Positions 2,237 to 10,185 of a stretch of 27,528 nucleotides of DNA are shown here, piece after piece. The DNA comes from Bacillota bacterium (GTDB lineage Bacteria > Bacillota_A > Clostridia > Tissierellales > Peptoniphilaceae), in contig JAEZZN010000051.1 of assembly GCA_023418535.1 (NCBI GenBank), positions 1-27,528 on the forward strand, written 5' to 3'. A program made the position numbers and the translations under genes. The first letter of the stretch is position 1, and every line of letters starts with the position of its first letter. The notes below the pieces were generated by a model. It saw only the letters and a program-made list of their open reading frames with translations, had not been told where the DNA came from and did no database searches.

Positions 2237-2932
2237 ATGAAAAATTATACAATCAAAGAAATTATTAAAAATGAAAGACCTATGGAAAAACTAGCTACTT
2301 ATGGAAGACAATCCTTAAGTAATTCGGAGTTATTAGCTATATTAATTGGTTCAGGAACTAAAAAGAAAAATGCAATAAAACTTGCTGATGAAATTCTTCA
2401 TAAGAAACTTATAAGTAAGAATTTATTGTATACCGAAATTCAGCAATTAGTTCAAATTGACGGTATTGGATTATCAAAAGCTTCGAGAATAATTGCTGGT
2501 TTAGAGCTGGGAAAAAGATTATCTAAAATAGATAAGATGGATAGTATTTCACTTACAAATCCAGATTCTGTAGCAGACTATTTATTTGAACATTTTAGAG
2601 ATTCGTATAAAGAAGAATTTGTAGTTTTATTGTTGAATACAAAAAATAGAATTATTACAATTAAAACAATTTCTCAGGGAACTATTAATCAAACCTTAGT
2701 TCATCCCAGAGAAGTTTTTAGAGATGCTATTTTGCATAATGCAAATGCAATTATAGTTAGTCATAACCATCCTAGTGGGGATCCTACTCCAAGCAAAGAA
2801 GATATTCTTATAACTGATAGATTGGTAAAAGTGGGAGAATATATAGGTATAAAGGTTTTAGATCATATTGTTGTAGGAAATAACGAGTATATTAGTTTTA
2901 GGGAAAAAGGTTTAATAAAGGAAAAAATATGA
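2237..2932 (+). CDS. radC: RadC family JAB/JAMM domain protein
   Basis: A 231-residue protein of typical RadC length. An N-terminal helix-hairpin-helix region (IDGIGLSKASRI near residue 74-85) precedes a JAMM-fold domain. The metal-binding motif is complete: His176-x-His178, then Ser186 and Asp189 in SHNHPSGDPTPSKED. RadC proteins are annotated as DNA repair proteins, but their in vivo role is unsettled. This gene sits in the usual firmicute position just upstream of mreB and overlaps it through an ATGA junction (2929-2932). A strong AAGGAG site precedes the ATG. The location is chromosomal core rather than a mobile-element RadC. Confidence 0.93.
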   Translation: MKNYTIKEIIKNERPMEKLATYGRQSLSNSELLAILIGSGTKKKNAIKLADEILHKKLISKNLLYTEIQQLVQIDGIGLSKASRIIAGLELGKRLSKIDKMDSISLTNPDSVADYLFEHFRDSYKEEFVVLLLNTKNRIITIKTISQGTINQTLVHPREVFRDAILHNANAIIVSHNHPSGDPTPSKEDILITDRLVKVGEYIGIKVLDHIVVGNNEYISFREKGLIKEKI

Positions 2933-3933
2933 TATTTAGTATTGGAAAAGTCCTAGCTATTGATTTAGGAAGTGATAGCACATTAATTTATAAAGATAAA
3001 AATAAAGGTATTATTCAAGGATCTTCTCAAGTTGCTATTGATATTAAAAATGGAGAATATATTGCAATAGGAGATAAAGCCTCAGAAATGTATGGAAAAT
3101 CTCCAGAAAATATTGCAGTAATAAATCCAATTCAAGATGGAACTATATCTGATTTTGATACTACCAAAATTTTGTTAAAGTATTATATTGAGAAAGCATC
3201 TGGTGGATTTTCAATTGTGCAACCTAAAGTTGTTATAAATGCACCTTCAGGTATTAATGATATAGAACTAAGAGCTATAGAAGATGCATCTATATATGCA
3301 GGAGCTAGAGAGGTATATATTCTAGAATCTTCTCTTGCAGCAGCAATAGGTGCAGGATTTGATATAAGTAAATCTGAAGGAAGAATAATAGTTAATATAG
3401 GTGCAGGGAATACGGAAATAGCTATTATTTCTATGAATGGCATTGTACTTTCCAAAAATTTAAAATTTGGCGGTGCACAATTAGATCAAAGAATAGCGGA
3501 TTATATATATGATAAATATTCATTACTTATTGGAATAAATACGGCTAAAGAAATAAAAGAAAATTTAGGAAATGTTTTTGAGCCTACAAATACTAGTTAT
3601 GAAGTAAGCGGGAGAGATTTATTATCAGGAATGCCAGTGAACTTAGATGTAAATGATCAAGATGTACTATCTGCTATAAAGGGTGATATTAATCAAATAA
3701 TTAATGAAATCAGAATGCAAATAGAGAAAAATCCTCCAGAACTTGCAAGAGATATACTTAAAAATGGTATATTTTTAACCGGAGGACTAAGCCAATTAAA
3801 AGGACTTGATAAACTAATAGAAAGAGAAATTGGTATAAAAGTAATTAGGTCGAAAAATCCTTTAACGGATGTAGTAAATGGACTAAAAATTGTTGCAGAT
3901 AATCTTAAAGAATATATAAATATTAGGAAATAA
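2929..3933 (+). CDS. mreB: Divergent MreB-type actin homologue (rod-shape determination)
   Basis: A 334-residue actin-fold ATPase-family protein, first of an mreB-mreC-mreD-PBP2 cluster, which makes the assignment firm. Alignable landmarks are AIDLGSDSTLIY at the N-terminus (phosphate 1), PSGINDIELRAI, ESSLAAAIGAG near residue 130, AKEIKENLG near 205 and LTGGLSQLKGLD near 283 (adenosine loop). Several nucleotide-contacting positions differ from ordinary MreB, as I remember it: DLGTANT has become DLGSDST, the phosphate 2 loop DIGGGTTE has become NIGAGNTE (Asp to Asn), EEP before AAAIG has become ESS, and GGGA has become GGLS. Normally MreB forms membrane filaments that position the elongation machinery with MreC, MreD, RodA and PBP2. 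Whether this copy still hydrolyses ATP is doubtful. It starts inside the radC stop codon. Confidence 0.88.
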   Translation: MIFSIGKVLAIDLGSDSTLIYKDKNKGIIQGSSQVAIDIKNGEYIAIGDKASEMYGKSPENIAVINPIQDGTISDFDTTKILLKYYIEKASGGFSIVQPKVVINAPSGINDIELRAIEDASIYAGAREVYILESSLAAAIGAGFDISKSEGRIIVNIGAGNTEIAIISMNGIVLSKNLKFGGAQLDQRIADYIYDKYSLLIGINTAKEIKENLGNVFEPTNTSYEVSGRDLLSGMPVNLDVNDQDVLSAIKGDINQIINEIRMQIEKNPPELARDILKNGIFLTGGLSQLKGLDKLIEREIGIKVIRSKNPLTDVVNGLKIVADNLKEYINIRK

Positions 3934-3934
3934 A

Positions 3935-4768
3935 ATGTTATATTATAATAAAAATAGAGTAAATAAAAAACATATAATTAGAGTTTTAGTGCTTTTTTCA
4001 CTAATTTTACTTACGTCAATTAATCCTGATGCAAGTAGAATTGGTAGTAGAGTATATAGTTTTATAACTAAACCAATAACTCTTTTAACTACCAAAGTTT
4101 CTAAAGTAACTACTGATGCTATAGACGCAGTAATTGGGACAAAACCAAATAGAGATATGGTGAATAAACTTACAAAAGAAAATGAAGAACTAAAATCAAA
4201 AGTTAATAATTTAGAATTTGTTTTAAATAATCAAGAATATTTAAAACAATCTATTAAATTTAAGGAATTAACAAATGCTTTAAATGCTAATTTAATTATG
4301 ATAGATAATGATTCAAGATTTTCACAATTTATGATTGATAAAGGAATATTAAATGGAGTACATGTAGGAGATGAAATTGTAAGTTCTTACGGAAGCAATG
4401 AAACTAATACTTTGGGGTCTTTGGTAGGAAGGGTAATTGAAGTAAATGAAAGCACTTCAGTAATATCTTCTATATATGATGATAAATATAATATAACTTT
4501 TGAACACGGAAAAACCAACACAATTGGAGTTATAAGAAATCGAAATAATGGATATCTTGAAGGTTATATGCTTAATACAGCTGATATAAAAGTTGGAGAT
4601 TCTGTATATACTTCAGGTACCGGAGGGCTATATCAAAGAGGATTATATTTAGGAAAAATAACAGAAGTAAAGATGTCTCAAGATGGATTAAATCAATTAG
4701 TAACTATTTTAAGTCCAGTTAATTTTGCAAAACTATATGAAGTATTTGTATTGAGAGGAGATAATTAA
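3935..4768 (+). CDS. mreC: Rod shape-determining protein MreC
   Basis: A 277-residue bitopic protein with a membrane anchor at about residues 13-28, a coiled coil at about 68-100 (TKENEELKSKVNNLE), then the extracytoplasmic beta domain of MreC. Landmarks there include IDKGILNGVHVGDEI, GSLVGRVIEV, NITFEHGKTNTIGVI and VGDSVYTSG. MreC links cytoplasmic MreB to PBP2 in the elongasome outside the membrane. The length is typical. The gene begins one base after mreB stops, and its stop overlaps the mreD start by one base (TAATG), indicating a tightly coupled operon. Confidence 0.92.
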   Translation: MLYYNKNRVNKKHIIRVLVLFSLILLTSINPDASRIGSRVYSFITKPITLLTTKVSKVTTDAIDAVIGTKPNRDMVNKLTKENEELKSKVNNLEFVLNNQEYLKQSIKFKELTNALNANLIMIDNDSRFSQFMIDKGILNGVHVGDEIVSSYGSNETNTLGSLVGRVIEVNESTSVISSIYDDKYNITFEHGKTNTIGVIRNRNNGYLEGYMLNTADIKVGDSVYTSGTGGLYQRGLYLGKITEVKMSQDGLNQLVTILSPVNFAKLYEVFVLRGDN

Positions 4769-5268
4769 TGAAAAAGAGATATTTAATTATAATTTTGTTT
4801 ATATTAAATTTAATCATTGATTTATCTATTTTATCAAGATATGAATTTTATGGATATACACCAAGTATAACAATACCTATTATTGTGATATTATCAATGT
4901 TTGAGAAAAAAGAAAGTATTGTATATTACGCAATTTTGCAAGGAATATTTCAAGATTTATCATTTGGACATATAATTGGTCTTAATGCATTATTGTACTA
5001 TTTAATCTCATATTATACTTTTAAAAATGTTAAAGAAAACCAATATAGTTTATCATATGGAAATATATCAATAGTATTTGCAATATTATTTAAAAATATT
5101 TTTAGATTAATCAGCTCATATTTAATAAATAGAAAATTTTATTTCTTAAATATATATAATTTAGTATTTACAATAATTGCTGAATTAATTTTTACTTTAG
5201 TAATATTTGCTATTCTACACTTTGTATATAGCAGTATGGATAAAAAACGCGTTAAAAATCTATTTTAA
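4768..5268 (+). CDS. mreD: Rod shape-determining protein MreD
   Basis: A 166-residue polytopic membrane protein with about five helices. It fits MreD in size, hydrophobicity and position, and by the segment ILQGIFQDLSFGHIIGLNAL, which corresponds to the conserved G-x-x-x-D region of MreD. MreD works with MreC and PBP2 in lateral wall synthesis. It overlaps the last base of mreC and is followed by PBP2 after 9 bases. An AGGAG site lies upstream of the ATG. MreD proteins diverge fast, so context carries much of the weight. Confidence 0.87.
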   Translation: MKKRYLIIILFILNLIIDLSILSRYEFYGYTPSITIPIIVILSMFEKKESIVYYAILQGIFQDLSFGHIIGLNALLYYLISYYTFKNVKENQYSLSYGNISIVFAILFKNIFRLISSYLINRKFYFLNIYNLVFTIIAELIFTLVIFAILHFVYSSMDKKRVKNLF

Positions 5269-5277
5269 GGAGGCAAT

Positions 5278-8200
5278 ATGAAAAAAAGTAGACTAAATTT
5301 AATTCTAGTTCTTTTTCTAATTGCTTTTTTTGTACTATTTTTTAGACTATTTCAACTTACAATAGTTGAAGGGGAAAAGTATAGATCATTTTCAGACACT
5401 AACAGAATTAAAGAAGTTAATTTAGAAGCTACTAGAGGAATAATATATGATAGAAATGGTAAAGATCTTGCAACAAATAAAGCAACATATAATTTAGTGG
5501 CATATAAAGATAGATTTGATGAACTTGATAGAAAATCTAAAAATGAAGTTCTTTCAAAGTTAATAACTATTCTTGACCAAGATGGAATTAATTATCTTGA
5601 AGATTATTTTATTAGCTTGAATGAGTTTGTTTATGAAGATGAAAACTCATATTTTACAAACAAGCAATTACCTATTAATAAAGTAATACAAAAAATTCAA
5701 AAAGAAAATTTATTAAAAGATATATTTCTTTCTAAAATTCAAATAGATAATGGAATATATTTTTATCCTATAAAAAGAGTTACAGACTATTTGTCACTTA
5801 GAGGGAAAACTATACCAATTGAAGTCAATACAGGAGATGTAGTTGAAGTTAAATTTATAAAAAATTCTGAATATGACGCTTTAATTGATCAATCTATCAT
5901 TACAGAAAATACAACGGCCATGGATTATTTAACTTCATTAATAGAAAATGATGATAATTTTATTTATTATATTATTTCACATCCGTTTTCAAGAAAGATT
6001 GTATATGATTTATTGGTTCAAAAAGGTATACAAGATGATTTAAATATTTCTAATTTAACATATAAAGCGGATATAGATTATATTGAAAATAAGGCAAGAT
6101 TAAATAAATATTCTAAATCAGTAACTCTAAATTCTAAACCTAAAGATGATTTTATTAATTTAGTTAAAGAAAATTCACTTTCAGATTTATTGACATCCAT
6201 ATATAAAAGTACAGATAGCATGGTTGTTCCGGTGTCAACACTTATTAATAAATTAGAGAAAAGTGGAATTGAGACAAATATAGAATATACATTAGATGAG
6301 GAAAATCTTGAGGTTCATTTAAAATATAAAAATGAAGATTCTGATGAAACTCTTTCTCCAGAATACAGATTAATTGATCTTGCTACTCAAAACAAAATGA
6401 TTGACGAATTCATTTTGAGTAAAGATATTATAACATATGCAGAAAGATCATTGTTTGATAAGGGGATATATCCAAGAATTTATAAAGATGTTTGGGAATA
6501 TTCATATTTAAGTGATAAAGAAGATATGATAAAAAAATATGACTCAGACAAAGTGGAGGATGTATTTACGGAATTAACAGAAGATTATGAACTTGATTCA
6601 TATGATGAATATTTTAAACTGGGTATACTATCCATAAACAATAAAATAAACGAACAAGGTTATTTGGCCTATACTCCAAAAACTATTGCAAAGAACATAA
6701 ATAATGATTCATTGTTAAAAATTGAAGAGATGATACCTAAAGATACAGGCTTTGAGGTCGTAATAGATTCTATGAGATATTATCCTCATGATAATCTAGC
6801 ATCTCATGTCTTAGGATATATAGGAAGCATTTCTGAAAACAGTGAAGTTGAGGAATATATACAGTATAAAAAATATGACGCAAATGATAAAGTTGGTAAA
6901 TCAGGACTTGAACAGAGTTTTGAAGATACTCTAAGGGGTGTGAAAGGTAGAAAACTTGTATACACAGACGTATATGGTCAAACTACCGATACTATTGAAG
7001 AAATAAGCGCTGTTCCAGGAAATAATGTTTATACAACTATTGATTTAGAGTTCCAAAAACAAGTAGAAAGAATTACTTATGATATGCTTGAATCTCTAAG
7101 AGAAGGAACTCCGTATAAATCATATTTTGGAAATTATGATTTAGCACAAGCTCCAAAAGCACAAGTGGCTTCAGTGGTTGTTATGAATACTAAAACTGGG
7201 GAAATTCTAGCAATGGTGTCAACACCAGACTATAATCCAAATCTATTTGTAAATGGAATATCAACTTATGATTGGGATTCATTAAATAATTCAAATCCAG
7301 ATGATATGTATGCTCCTAGACCAATCGTAAACAATGTTATTCAGTCAGCTTTTCCTCCAGGGTCTACATTTAAGCCATTAGTGTCACTAGCAGCACTTGA
7401 AAATGGATTGAATCCTAATGCTACAATTGATACATCTGGTTTTATAGAAATCGATAATAATAAATATTATGAATTTATCTATTCTACACAAGGAAGAACA
7501 TGGGGAAGAATTGATTTATATACTGCATTAAAAGTATCAAGTAACTATTATTTTTATACACTAGGACTAGGATATAATCCTAATAATTTAAGTGATGATG
7601 TAACGCAAGTATCTGTTGAGGATATTCAATCAATGACTAAAAGATTGGGAATGCAAGATAAATCAGGAATAGAAATTGACAATAATACTGAATCCAGCGG
7701 GTATACTCCATCAATTGAAAGAAAGTTGGTTATAGTAAGAGCACAACTTAATTCGTATCTAAGAGAAAACTTAGCTTCTTACGCAAGTGAAGGTGTAGAA
7801 ATTACTGATGAAAAATTAGAGAATGATATTACAAATATTTTGACATGGCTTGATAAAGGCTCAGATATGTCTAGAACAGAAGTAATAGACGAATTAGAAA
7901 AAATGGGATATGAAGCATTAGAACCTTTAGAAGGTAGAACAATTGGTCTTGCAGATTTAGTAAAATACAGCTATATAAATGTTGCAAAATGGGACGAACA
8001 TGATAAGGTGAATATGGTTATTGGTCAAGGTCAAAACTCATATACACCAATACAAATGGTTCAGTATGCTGCGATATTAGGTAATGAAGGTAAATTTGTT
8101 CATCCTACATTATTAAAAGCTATTAAAAACTATAAAAATACAGAAGATATATTTGTCAATGAACCTAAAATTACTGATTCAGGTGTAGACAAAAACAATT

Positions 8201-8613
8201 TTAAGATAGTTAAAGAAGGTATGAGAAGAGCTTCTTTAGGAGTTCAATTTAGAAGTAATTTCCCATTTGAGATTGGATCAAAAACAGGTACAGCTGATGT
8301 AGGTAGTATTGATCCAAAAACAGGTGATTTTTATGATAGAATTGTTTCAGAGATAGCATTTGCGCCATTTGATGAACCAGAAATTGCTGTTTATTTTTCA
8401 GTAATGGAAGGTTCAAAATCAGAAAATGTTCGTGGTGCTAATAATGATATTATATATGCTTATTATAAGTATATAAAGAAAGATCCAAGATTTACTTTGA
8501 CAAGACCTGGAGAAGATATATCTAGTAGTTATAGAGCAAATAAATTTGAACCAGAAGAAGTTGAAGAAACCGATGATGAAGCTATGGATGAAAATCAAGA
8601 GACTGAAGAATAG
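5278..8613 (+). CDS. mrdA: Class B penicillin-binding protein 2 (D,D-transpeptidase), unusually long
   Basis: A 1111-residue class B PBP. It has an N-terminal membrane anchor (about residues 6-27), a dimerisation/pedestal domain and a C-terminal transpeptidase domain with all three catalytic motifs: S696-T-F-K699, S754-S-N756 and K1002-T-G1004. It crosslinks peptidoglycan with the elongation machinery, consistent with its place directly after mreBCD. The usual pre-catalytic block (YIGSISE, then KVGKSGLEQSFEDTLRGVKG) is present near residues 517-556. The odd feature is length: PBP2 proteins are mostly about 600-750 residues. Here several hundred extra residues lie between the N-terminal pedestal (RGIIYDRNGKDLATN, near 55) and that block, and there is an insertion near residues 820-890. 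An acidic tail (EEVEETDDEAMDENQETEE) ends the protein. A strong AAGGAGG site overlaps the mreD stop. Confidence 0.93.
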   Translation: MKKSRLNLILVLFLIAFFVLFFRLFQLTIVEGEKYRSFSDTNRIKEVNLEATRGIIYDRNGKDLATNKATYNLVAYKDRFDELDRKSKNEVLSKLITILDQDGINYLEDYFISLNEFVYEDENSYFTNKQLPINKVIQKIQKENLLKDIFLSKIQIDNGIYFYPIKRVTDYLSLRGKTIPIEVNTGDVVEVKFIKNSEYDALIDQSIITENTTAMDYLTSLIENDDNFIYYIISHPFSRKIVYDLLVQKGIQDDLNISNLTYKADIDYIENKARLNKYSKSVTLNSKPKDDFINLVKENSLSDLLTSIYKSTDSMVVPVSTLINKLEKSGIETNIEYTLDEENLEVHLKYKNEDSDETLSPEYRLIDLATQNKMIDEFILSKDIITYAERSLFDKGIYPRIYKDVWEYSYLSDKEDMIKKYDSDKVEDVFTELTEDYELDSYDEYFKLGILSINNKINEQGYLAYTPKTIAKNINNDSLLKIEEMIPKDTGFEVVIDSMRYYPHDNLASHVLGYIGSISENSEVEEYIQYKKYDANDKVGKSGLEQSFEDTLRGVKGRKLVYTDVYGQTTDTIEEISAVPGNNVYTTIDLEFQKQVERITYDMLESLREGTPYKSYFGNYDLAQAPKAQVASVVVMNTKTGEILAMVSTPDYNPNLFVNGISTYDWDSLNNSNPDDMYAPRPIVNNVIQSAFPPGSTFKPLVSLAALENGLNPNATIDTSGFIEIDNNKYYEFIYSTQGRTWGRIDLYTALKVSSNYYFYTLGLGYNPNNLSDDVTQVSVEDIQSMTKRLGMQDKSGIEIDNNTESSGYTPSIERKLVIVRAQLNSYLRENLASYASEGVEITDEKLENDITNILTWLDKGSDMSRTEVIDELEKMGYEALEPLEGRTIGLADLVKYSYINVAKWDEHDKVNMVIGQGQNSYTPIQMVQYAAILGNEGKFVHPTLLKAIKNYKNTEDIFVNEPKITDSGVDKNNFKIVKEGMRRASLGVQFRSNFPFEIGSKTGTADVGSIDPKTGDFYDRIVSEIAFAPFDEPEIAVYFSVMEGSKSENVRGANNDIIYAYYKYIKKDPRFTLTRPGEDISSSYRANKFEPEEVEETDDEAMDENQETEE

Positions 8614-8622
8614 GAATAAATT

Positions 8623-9192
8623 ATGAAAAAATATTTTTTTGAAGTTGAAGAAGAATTTATTGGAAATATACCAAGGCTAATCGAAAAATTTAATGGTAAA
8701 AAGCTTATTATCAGTTTAATACAGGAAAGCAGAGAATTAGAAAGTCTTTATGATATAGATGAATATATAATTTATGATAATTCTGATGTGTTAACAGGCA
8801 TAATATCTTTGGAAGATGCCATAATTAATGTTGAAGATAACTTAGATTTATTACCATCTTCATATAAGAAAAAAGTAGATTTTATAAATCATGAAATCTT
8901 TGAAAATGAAATATTTAAAGATTATGACTATGTATTTTTCTTACTTGATGACATAATAAATCATGATTTGAATAATGAAACAATTCCAATTTGTGATTCA
9001 CCAAAAGCTAATAAAAACAATATTATATGTTCAAAATTTGAAGTGAAACTTGTTCAACACAACAAAATATATGGTTTTTTAAATGATAATGAAAATGACT
9101 TGGTTCAATTACATGAAAATTTAGAAAATGATAAAATTTTAGATTATAATGATTTTTCATTTTTCCAAAAAATAAAAGGTTTCTTAAATTAG
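8623..9192 (+). CDS. MinD-like protein lacking all ATP-binding motifs (pseudo-ATPase or decaying minD)
   Basis: A 189-residue acidic protein that I align by eye to MinD (about 265 residues). GKKLIISLIQESRELESLYD (25-44) follows MinD GKRVCLVDTDIGLRNLDVVMG. EYIIYDNSDVLTGIISLEDA (47-66) follows NRIIYDLVDVVEGRCKMHQA. NLDLLPSS (73-80) follows LLYLMPAAQ. FKDYDYVFFLLDD follows QEFDYVIIDCPAG. IYGFLNDNENDLVQLHENLE follows LLGIVADDDEVIKASNHGEP. The last residues, SFFQKIKGFLN, resemble MinD's amphipathic membrane-targeting helix. Missing are the deviant Walker A loop, the switch I aspartate (DIG is now QES) and the Walker B aspartate (VIID is now VFFL). Clostridia usually carry minC-minD-minE after PBP2; only this gene occupies that slot. 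It is an intact frame with a normal ribosome binding site. Homology is an inference; the lack of a P-loop is directly visible. Confidence 0.6.
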   Translation: MKKYFFEVEEEFIGNIPRLIEKFNGKKLIISLIQESRELESLYDIDEYIIYDNSDVLTGIISLEDAIINVEDNLDLLPSSYKKKVDFINHEIFENEIFKDYDYVFFLLDDIINHDLNNETIPICDSPKANKNNIICSKFEVKLVQHNKIYGFLNDNENDLVQLHENLENDKILDYNDFSFFQKIKGFLN

Positions 9193-9204
9193 TTGGATAG
9201 ATTA

Positions 9205-10185
9205 ATGGAAAATTTTAGATTTATTTTTGAGAATGAAGAAAATAGAATATTTGGAGAGATTAAAGATAAAAGACTTATAACCTATCTGGATGAAATTTAT
9301 ACATTAAAAGGTAATATATATAGAGCAAAAGTTTTGAGATATATAAAATCATTGGATGGATATATTTTAGATTTAGGTCTTGAGAAAAATGGATTACTGA
9401 GAATGAAAAACACTATATCAGAAATAAAACCATCTATGGATGTAATTGTAGAGCTTATTGAAGCCAATACGGGAGATAAGCTTTACGAATTATCTCAAAA
9501 ATACTCATTAACAGATGGATATATAGTTTATTTACCTTTTGTAAAATTTAATAATAGAAATATTTTTGAAATAGAAGGAAATTCTTATTTATTAAGAACT
9601 AAATGGAAAAAATTAAATAAAGATGAAATCCATAAAAGATTAAATTCATTAATAAAAGAACATGAAAATCTTAAAAAAGAGAAAAATATGCTTCCTACTC
9701 CAAAATTATTGAAGGAAGGAAATTTTTTAGTAGATTTCATAGAGAATTATAATCATGAGATTATTTCGAATGAAAGAAAATATAATGTTAAGTTTGAAGA
9801 AGATTTTAATCCAAACTTTCACACACAAATATCTAGAGAGCTTATCGGGATGAGAAAAAGAAAAATAGAAATTGATGGATTAGAAATTGTTATCGACAAG
9901 CTTGAAGCTCTCACAGTAATTGATGTTAATTCAAAAAATGAATTTAGTGAATATTCTAAAGAAGATATGTCATTAAAAGTAAATCTATCTGTAATAGAAG
10001 AGATAGCCATTCAAATAAAGCTGAGACAAATTAAGAAGATGTTAATTATAGACTTTTTAAGAATGGATAAAAAAAATCAAAAGATACTTTTAAAAGATAT
10101 AGATAAAAAATTTAAGAGTTATGATTTGAAATTTAAAATAATGGGATATTCAAACTTAGGATTTGTTGAAATAATCATATTTTAA
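9205..10185 (+). CDS. Shortened RNase E/G family ribonuclease
   Basis: A 326-residue protein (330 if the TTG at 9193 is used) of the RNase E/G family. An S1-like RNA-binding domain (GNIYRAKVLRYIKSLDGYIL, then GLEKNGLLRM) comes first. The catalytic region follows, with IDVNSKNEF and MLIIDFLRMD; counted from the TTG these hold Asp244 and Asp287, 43 residues apart, the same spacing as catalytic Asp303 and Asp346 of E. coli RNase E. LPTPKLL and NLGFVEI match the family's GPTPRKL and LGLVEMTRKR segments. The protein stops right there, so the zinc-link (CPxC) and the region after it are absent. The gene lies just upstream of rplU, as in many firmicutes. ATG 9205 is preferred because TTGGA lies 7 bases upstream, whereas TTG 9193 abuts the previous stop codon with no ribosome binding site. 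The true start is uncertain. Confidence 0.8.
   Translation: MENFRFIFENEENRIFGEIKDKRLITYLDEIYTLKGNIYRAKVLRYIKSLDGYILDLGLEKNGLLRMKNTISEIKPSMDVIVELIEANTGDKLYELSQKYSLTDGYIVYLPFVKFNNRNIFEIEGNSYLLRTKWKKLNKDEIHKRLNSLIKEHENLKKEKNMLPTPKLLKEGNFLVDFIENYNHEIISNERKYNVKFEEDFNPNFHTQISRELIGMRKRKIEIDGLEIVIDKLEALTVIDVNSKNEFSEYSKEDMSLKVNLSVIEEIAIQIKLRQIKKMLIIDFLRMDKKNQKILLKDIDKKFKSYDLKFKIMGYSNLGFVEIIIF

Follow-up and report, generated by a model that had tools for sequence, protein, structure and literature searches.

MinD is the textbook ATP-driven membrane switch. The window, by which we mean the whole 27,528-nucleotide stretch of Bacillota DNA analysed here, encodes 3' of pbp2 a protein that a first-pass annotation described as a MinD paralogue stripped of its ATPase site but keeping its membrane-targeting helix. 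Is this protein a MinD at all, how did it come to occupy this slot, and does it persist there as a pseudo-ATPase with a role on the membrane or as a gene in decay?

Identity of the protein encoded 3' of pbp2

The open reading frame begins with ATG, a few bases 3' of an AGGA sequence; its motifs and neighbours are listed in Table 1. The nearest genome compared, G001 (apparently Helcococcus sueciensis DSM 17243), shares 96% DNA identity with the window over 12 kb. The RNase E/G-like protein encoded downstream has 330 residues; open frames of about 400-516 residues are found in most Min-containing relatives. This downstream protein matches Pfam best over the later part of the model and presumably stops where the RNase E zinc-link would follow.

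Table 1. The MinD-derived gene of the window, its motif positions and its neighbours.
Feature	Position	Strand	Basis or remark
MinD-derived pseudo-ATPase, 189 aa	8623..9192	+	sequence profiles, AlphaFold2 model, Foldseek
Residues 9-13, turn and start of first helix right after strand 2-8; position of the deviant Walker A, motif lost	8647..8661	+	model, alignment
Residues 31-34 (SLIQ), switch I position; MinD D38 and D40 replaced	8713..8724	+	alignment
Residues 51-55 (YDNSD), MinD YD..D motif	8773..8787	+	alignment
Residues 103-109, Walker B position; counterpart of MinD D119 is leucine	8929..8949	+	alignment
Residues 179-189 (SFFQKIKGFLN), putative MinD-like membrane-targeting tail; predicted helix 180-188	9157..9189	+	alignment, model
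mreB, mreC, mreD	2929..5268	+	upstream, same gene run
PBP2-type transpeptidase (pbp2)	5278..8613	+	directly upstream, 9-base gap
Short RNase E/G-like protein (rng)	9193..10185	+	immediately 3'; TTG start follows the stop codon without a gap; ATG at 9205

Sequence profiles and a predicted structure both lead to MinD. Searched alone against the MinD profile TIGR01968 (minD_bact), the 189-residue protein matches at E 7.9e-5 with 22.1 bits, short of the cut-off of 212.9 bits. A profile built from 13 close relatives recovers MinD structures from the PDB, that of Aquifex (4v02) at E 5.3e-9 and that of E. coli (3q9l) at E 1.1e-3, and aligns in hhalign with five canonical MinDs (probability 80.6, E 1.3e-5). 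Pfam returned no match for the 189-residue protein; when the 22 members of our alignment A2 were scanned with it, ParA/CbiA-type matches turned up sporadically, in a few members only. The AlphaFold2 model (pLDDT 91, pTM 0.88) has a MinD/ParA-like predicted fold across residues 1-179, and in Foldseek its first match is MinD (E 2.7e-6). The resemblance first noticed in the letters is real, and two of the checks proposed for it, profile-profile search and structure prediction, both recovered MinD. Several members of the same fold superfamily, which includes the ATP-binding proteins MipZ, FlhG/FleN, BcsQ and Soj/ParA, were among the structure matches; the profile and the slot favour MinD.

Sequence-profile homology, the predicted fold and the slot 3' of pbp2 all support MinD ancestry. 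The protein has both marks of a MinD descendant, an orthologous slot and profile homology, and we regard its gene as a positional descendant, or orthologue, of minD. The word paralogue has to be given up, since no full-score MinD was found in the 20 MinC-less genomes of our 60-genome sample that carry such a protein. We considered and rejected two further candidates. That the protein is not MinD at all is contradicted by profile, fold and slot. A canonical second minD in G001 was not found by the TIGR01968 search, in which the best match there reached 59 bits, far below the cut-off.

The slot and the Min system among relatives

In five Min-containing relatives (L073-L077), pbp2 is followed by an open frame of 211-228 residues and then by minD. 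We take the middle frame to be minC, since the MinC_C match coordinates fall inside it at all five loci. In MinC-less carriers, the MinD-derived frame comes directly after pbp2. Across 60 relatives, MinC_C, full-score MinD and MinE over cut-off were each found in 22 genomes, and these are the identical 22. In the other 38, which include the 20 carriers and among them G001, neither full-score MinD nor MinC was found, nor any MinE match above its cut-off. MinE matches below the cut-off occur in G025 and G035. The suggested search for minC, minE or a second minD was made in these relatives, and none was found over cut-off in G001 or the other MinC-less carriers. DivIVA passed its cut-off in 21 of the 22 Min-containing genomes, G028 being the exception, and in none of the 38 others, seven of which gave sub-cut-off matches.

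Of the 36 genomes that the window's family contributes to the sample of 60 relatives, G028 alone has MinC and MinE together with full-score MinD. Its minD and minC lie at the ends of different contigs (L078, L079), and no DivIVA match was found in it. It is either an early branch or a mis-binned assembly.

The MinD-derived protein is a family-wide feature that extends beyond the window genome. In the first sample, 17 of the 36 family genomes carry it 3' of pbp2 (16 found by the A2 search and G029 by reading), as do G038, G054 and G055, which belong to two other families. No such slot protein was found in 18 of the 36 family genomes, and likewise in 18 of the 38 MinC-less genomes. In 11 MinC-less genomes that have MreC and lack the protein, the next listed frame opens no more than about 180 bases after pbp2 ends, so the slot there is empty. 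A family-wide search of 130 genomes gave matches with E values no higher than 1e-10 in 63; a pbp2 match lies at most 1.5 kb upstream in 59 of the 63, and the slot proteins, from 15 genera, are 142-256 residues long. The comparison of the same slot in relatives, also proposed earlier, therefore puts carriage at no fewer than 59 of 130 family genomes, a lower bound because A2 searches miss G029.

The counts below refer to a set of 62 slot proteins. It consists of the 63 family matches less G028 (canonical, at a contig edge) and G100, G101 and G142 (no pbp2 match upstream), which leaves 59, together with G038, G054 and G055. G029 is counted among the 20 MinC-less carriers and not among the 62. 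The P-loops of G100 and G101 read SGKGGVGKS and SGKGGSGKS.

The ATP site, the YD..D motif and the C-terminal tail

In the alignment row of G001, where the letters of the window are identical, MinD K11 is replaced by E, D38 by S, D40 by I and D119 by L. The Walker A lysines, the switch I aspartates and the Walker B aspartate are thus lost, as the sequence had first been read. The N-terminal stretch aligns uncertainly; still, no GK[ST] remains near the N-terminus of the 189-residue protein. The full motif, KGGxGK[ST], is missing from the window protein and from all 62 slot proteins, and what is left of it varies. Both lysines stand among altered glycines in 6 slot proteins, 12 have the GK[ST] lysine only, 3 the first lysine only, and 8 have GGxG with neither lysine. 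The remaining 33, like the window protein, are without the motif by the pattern used, although the rows G078, G087 and G112, scored as having none, retain a lysine and have lost the flanking G or T/S. GK[ST] matches near residue 30 are false and were excluded from these P-loop counts. On a tree of the PBP2 C-terminal region (59 rows; a quick method, with long branches), parsimony gives at least four changes of GK[ST] state if regain is allowed. If no regain is assumed, the same tree, read by eye, gives eight or nine independent GK[ST] breaks.

Could the pocket have been re-tuned to another ligand or nucleotide, making the slot protein a sensor? The GK[ST] strand is retained in 18 of the 62, including the six with both lysines and altered glycines, which would fit such a use. 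We nevertheless think it very unlikely, given that the window protein and 33 of its 62 relatives have no P-loop motif and that the 189-residue model has just a short turn at the P-loop position.

Elsewhere the protein has kept recognizable parts of MinD. MinD Y58, D59 and D62 are retained in 57, 59 and 61 of the 62 slot proteins, respectively (one alignment), and YD..D, which is shared with the clostridial-type MinDs in the alignment, is the best conserved among the positions counted. At the C-terminus, SFFQKIKGFLN aligns with the MinD tail, which upholds the likeness noted earlier. A net positive charge over the last 15 residues is found in 61 of the 62 proteins, and the body is net negative in all of them; an F or W stands within the last 16 residues in 61. 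In 73% of slot proteins, at most 5% of the other segments along the protein are equally positive and hydrophobic. Hydrophobic-moment shuffles of the tail, a test with little power, gave p <0.05 in 6 of 40 rows (0 of the 6 canonical MinDs among them) and so lend the amphipathicity of the tail no statistical support.

A protein that has lost the C-terminal half of the domain still has the tail. In the H. massiliensis version (L085), of 142 residues, the second half of the domain is missing and the C-terminus reads SLWDKIKGIFKNG; in its model, residues 1-110 have block pLDDT of 72-94, and the C-terminal helix at residues 129-140 is of low confidence. The slot protein of G029 (L096, + strand, 6481-6909), missed by the A2 profile, also has 142 residues; its motif reads YN..D, and GFLQRFFAALKG occurs in its tail. 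Judged by its sequence, the slot-protein tail may be a MinD-like helix that targets the protein to the membrane.

Constraint and possible roles

Between the window and G001, the gene differs by 22.5 synonymous and 8.5 non-synonymous changes, a dN/dS of 0.067. The same comparison gives 0.109 for mreC, 0.121 for mreD, 0.076 for pbp2 and 0.137 for rng. A binomial comparison with neutrality yields p 5e-12 to 7e-11 (8 or 9 of 31 changes non-synonymous). In genus g24, dN/dS is 0.03-0.40 in all 40 pairs compared (from 30 genomes, amino acid identity at least 55%, dS <1.5, G096 left out), with a median of 0.21 over the 39 pairs with dS >0.1. One g24 clade without the P-loop (G069, G070, G071, G083, G094, G095) has values of 0.16-0.40, and another P-loop-less group (G074, G081, G084) has values of 0.03-0.07, so loss of the ATP site by itself need not mean relaxed constraint. 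No internal stops occur in 62 of the 63 family matches, a set that includes non-slot proteins. The match in G096 (L144) has internal stop codons and a C-terminus unlike that of its relatives, and is either a broken allele or an assembly error. The MinD-derived protein is under purifying selection, and the initial remark that it was still under some selection holds.

These values bear on the reading that minD is in slow, functionless decay and is translated by an accident of its operon. Recurrent loss of the ATP site, lengths that range from 142 to 256 residues, absence from half of the 36 family genomes, the internal stops of G096 and the dN/dS of the first P-loop-less clade are what decay would produce. 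It would not readily produce a window-lineage dN/dS no higher than that of mreC or mreD, the low values of G074, G081 and G084, 40 of 40 g24 pairs under 0.40, a tail and YD..D motif kept across 62 proteins, or presence in 15 genera. We therefore disfavour decay and hold it to be quite improbable. The first-pass annotation had left the choice between decay and a pseudo-ATPase acting as a membrane adaptor; the dN/dS, the open frames and the tail of the 142-residue version turn it towards the second, with the adaptor role itself a putative one.

On balance, and with modest confidence, we lean towards a remnant minD that, after loss of the Min system, serves as an ATP-independent membrane adaptor for the MreCD-PBP2 elongation machinery. 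The ancestral order would have been mreBCD-pbp2-minC-minD-minE, as in present Min-containing relatives, and minC and minE would then have disappeared. Along more than one path, MinD would have shed the residues of the P-loop and switch that ATP binding and dimerisation require, and it would have retained its fold, its YD..D motif and its C-terminal tail. The remnant protein would be a static adaptor at the membrane that works without ATP, probably as a monomer, and may serve the MreCD-PBP2 machinery encoded alongside.

In the 60-genome sample, MreC is present in 20 of 20 MinC-less carriers and in 11 of 18 MinC-less non-carriers (p 0.0025); for RNase E/G the counts are 17 of 20 and 13 of 18 (p 0.44). 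Both p values overstate independence because the genomes are related. The MreC co-occurrence is partly linkage, in that loss of the operon takes the slot gene too. As 11 of the 18 non-carriers keep MreC, the slot protein must be dispensable in some lineages. At four loci (G005, G009, G019, G034; L035, L039, L049, L064), the interval from radC to mreC showed no mreB, and mreC, pbp2 and the MinD-derived gene are all present. MreB encoded in the operon is therefore not an obligatory partner.

A static MinD that stays on the membrane without ATP is plausible because B. subtilis MinD K16A is reported as unable to bind ATP, monomeric, membrane-bound, slow to be released and evenly spread (PMC13246001). 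By analogy, a Gram-positive MinD that does not bind ATP but has its tail could behave like K16A, and the slot protein would be expected in the same state: no ATP binding, monomeric and evenly bound to the membrane. K16A is a loss-of-function laboratory point mutant, whereas the slot protein is natural and selected. Unlike the B. subtilis protein, E. coli MinD needs to dimerise before it binds the membrane well, according to the same study (PMC13246001), so a MinD without ATP cannot be assumed to bind the membrane.

The main rival to the elongation adaptor is a tether: the slot protein would hold the downstream RNase E/G at the membrane and so replace an anchor absent in the short RNase. We rate this as unlikely. 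The longest frames of the slot gene and rng overlap by 1-11 bases at nine of ten neighbour loci (starts chosen mechanically) and abut at the tenth, in G001, as they do in the window, which would allow coupled translation. Such close packing is not peculiar to the slot gene, however, since in G023, G033 and G036, which lack the protein, it is pbp2 that overlaps rng or ends shortly before it; in G005, G009, G018, G019, G034 and G031, other genes lie between the slot gene and rng. RNase E/G was not found in three of the 20 carriers, and its frequency in carriers and non-carriers, given above, does not set them apart. In E. coli, too, a MinD-type protein stands beside an RNase E/G-type one: RNase E is reported to be bound by MinD and to keep its wild-type distribution in cells whose MinD is the ATPase-deficient K16Q form (PMC10897333). 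The contact site is segment A of RNase E, which belongs to the long enzyme (PMC10897333), and such a segment is unlikely in the 330-residue RNase G-like protein.

We give little credence to a role in division, in which an ATP-free membrane protein would still place the division site by acting on FtsZ or the divisome without MinC. MinD ancestry would suit this role, and MinC, MinE and DivIVA do not pass their cut-offs in the carriers, so that another protein may have to stand in. Two studies report that MinC is dispensable for the action of E. coli Min waves in vitro (PMC6158289, PMC9262947). Against it, 18 of the 38 MinC-less genomes have no slot protein that we could find, and the gene sits among elongation genes. 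MinD itself is not known to inhibit FtsZ in the absence of MinC.

The adaptor for MreCD-PBP2 that we prefer can be stated more boldly: MinD had an old role in elongation that required neither ATP nor MinC nor MinE, this role alone was kept when the family lost the Min system, and the protein repeatedly and independently became an ATP-free membrane scaffold for MreCD-PBP2. We offer this version tentatively, as possible but rather doubtful.

The slot protein shares with canonical MinD (TIGR01968; 3q9l, 4v02) the predicted fold, the slot 3' of pbp2, the YD..D motif of the aligned clostridial-type MinDs and a C-terminal tail that aligns. Unlike MinD, it lacks the Walker A motif and the switch I and Walker B aspartates, its domain is shortened, and no MinC or MinE was found with it (G001). 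It is a MinD descendant that fails the tests by which MinD is defined, and it points to a change from a dynamic ATP switch to a static membrane adaptor. Among the matches listed from the open-access literature, there was no MinD pseudo-ATPase, no orphan MinD of this family and no such operon link, which is weak evidence of novelty.

The finding raises the question of how the septum is placed in bacteria such as the 38 MinC-less genomes, in which MinC, MinE and DivIVA do not pass their cut-offs. Within one family, it provides a natural series in which a switch is dismantled stepwise under continued selection on the fold, the tail and the gene. Such a series tells the ATP-requiring roles of MinD apart from the others and opens a function of MinD independent of MinC and MinE to testing.
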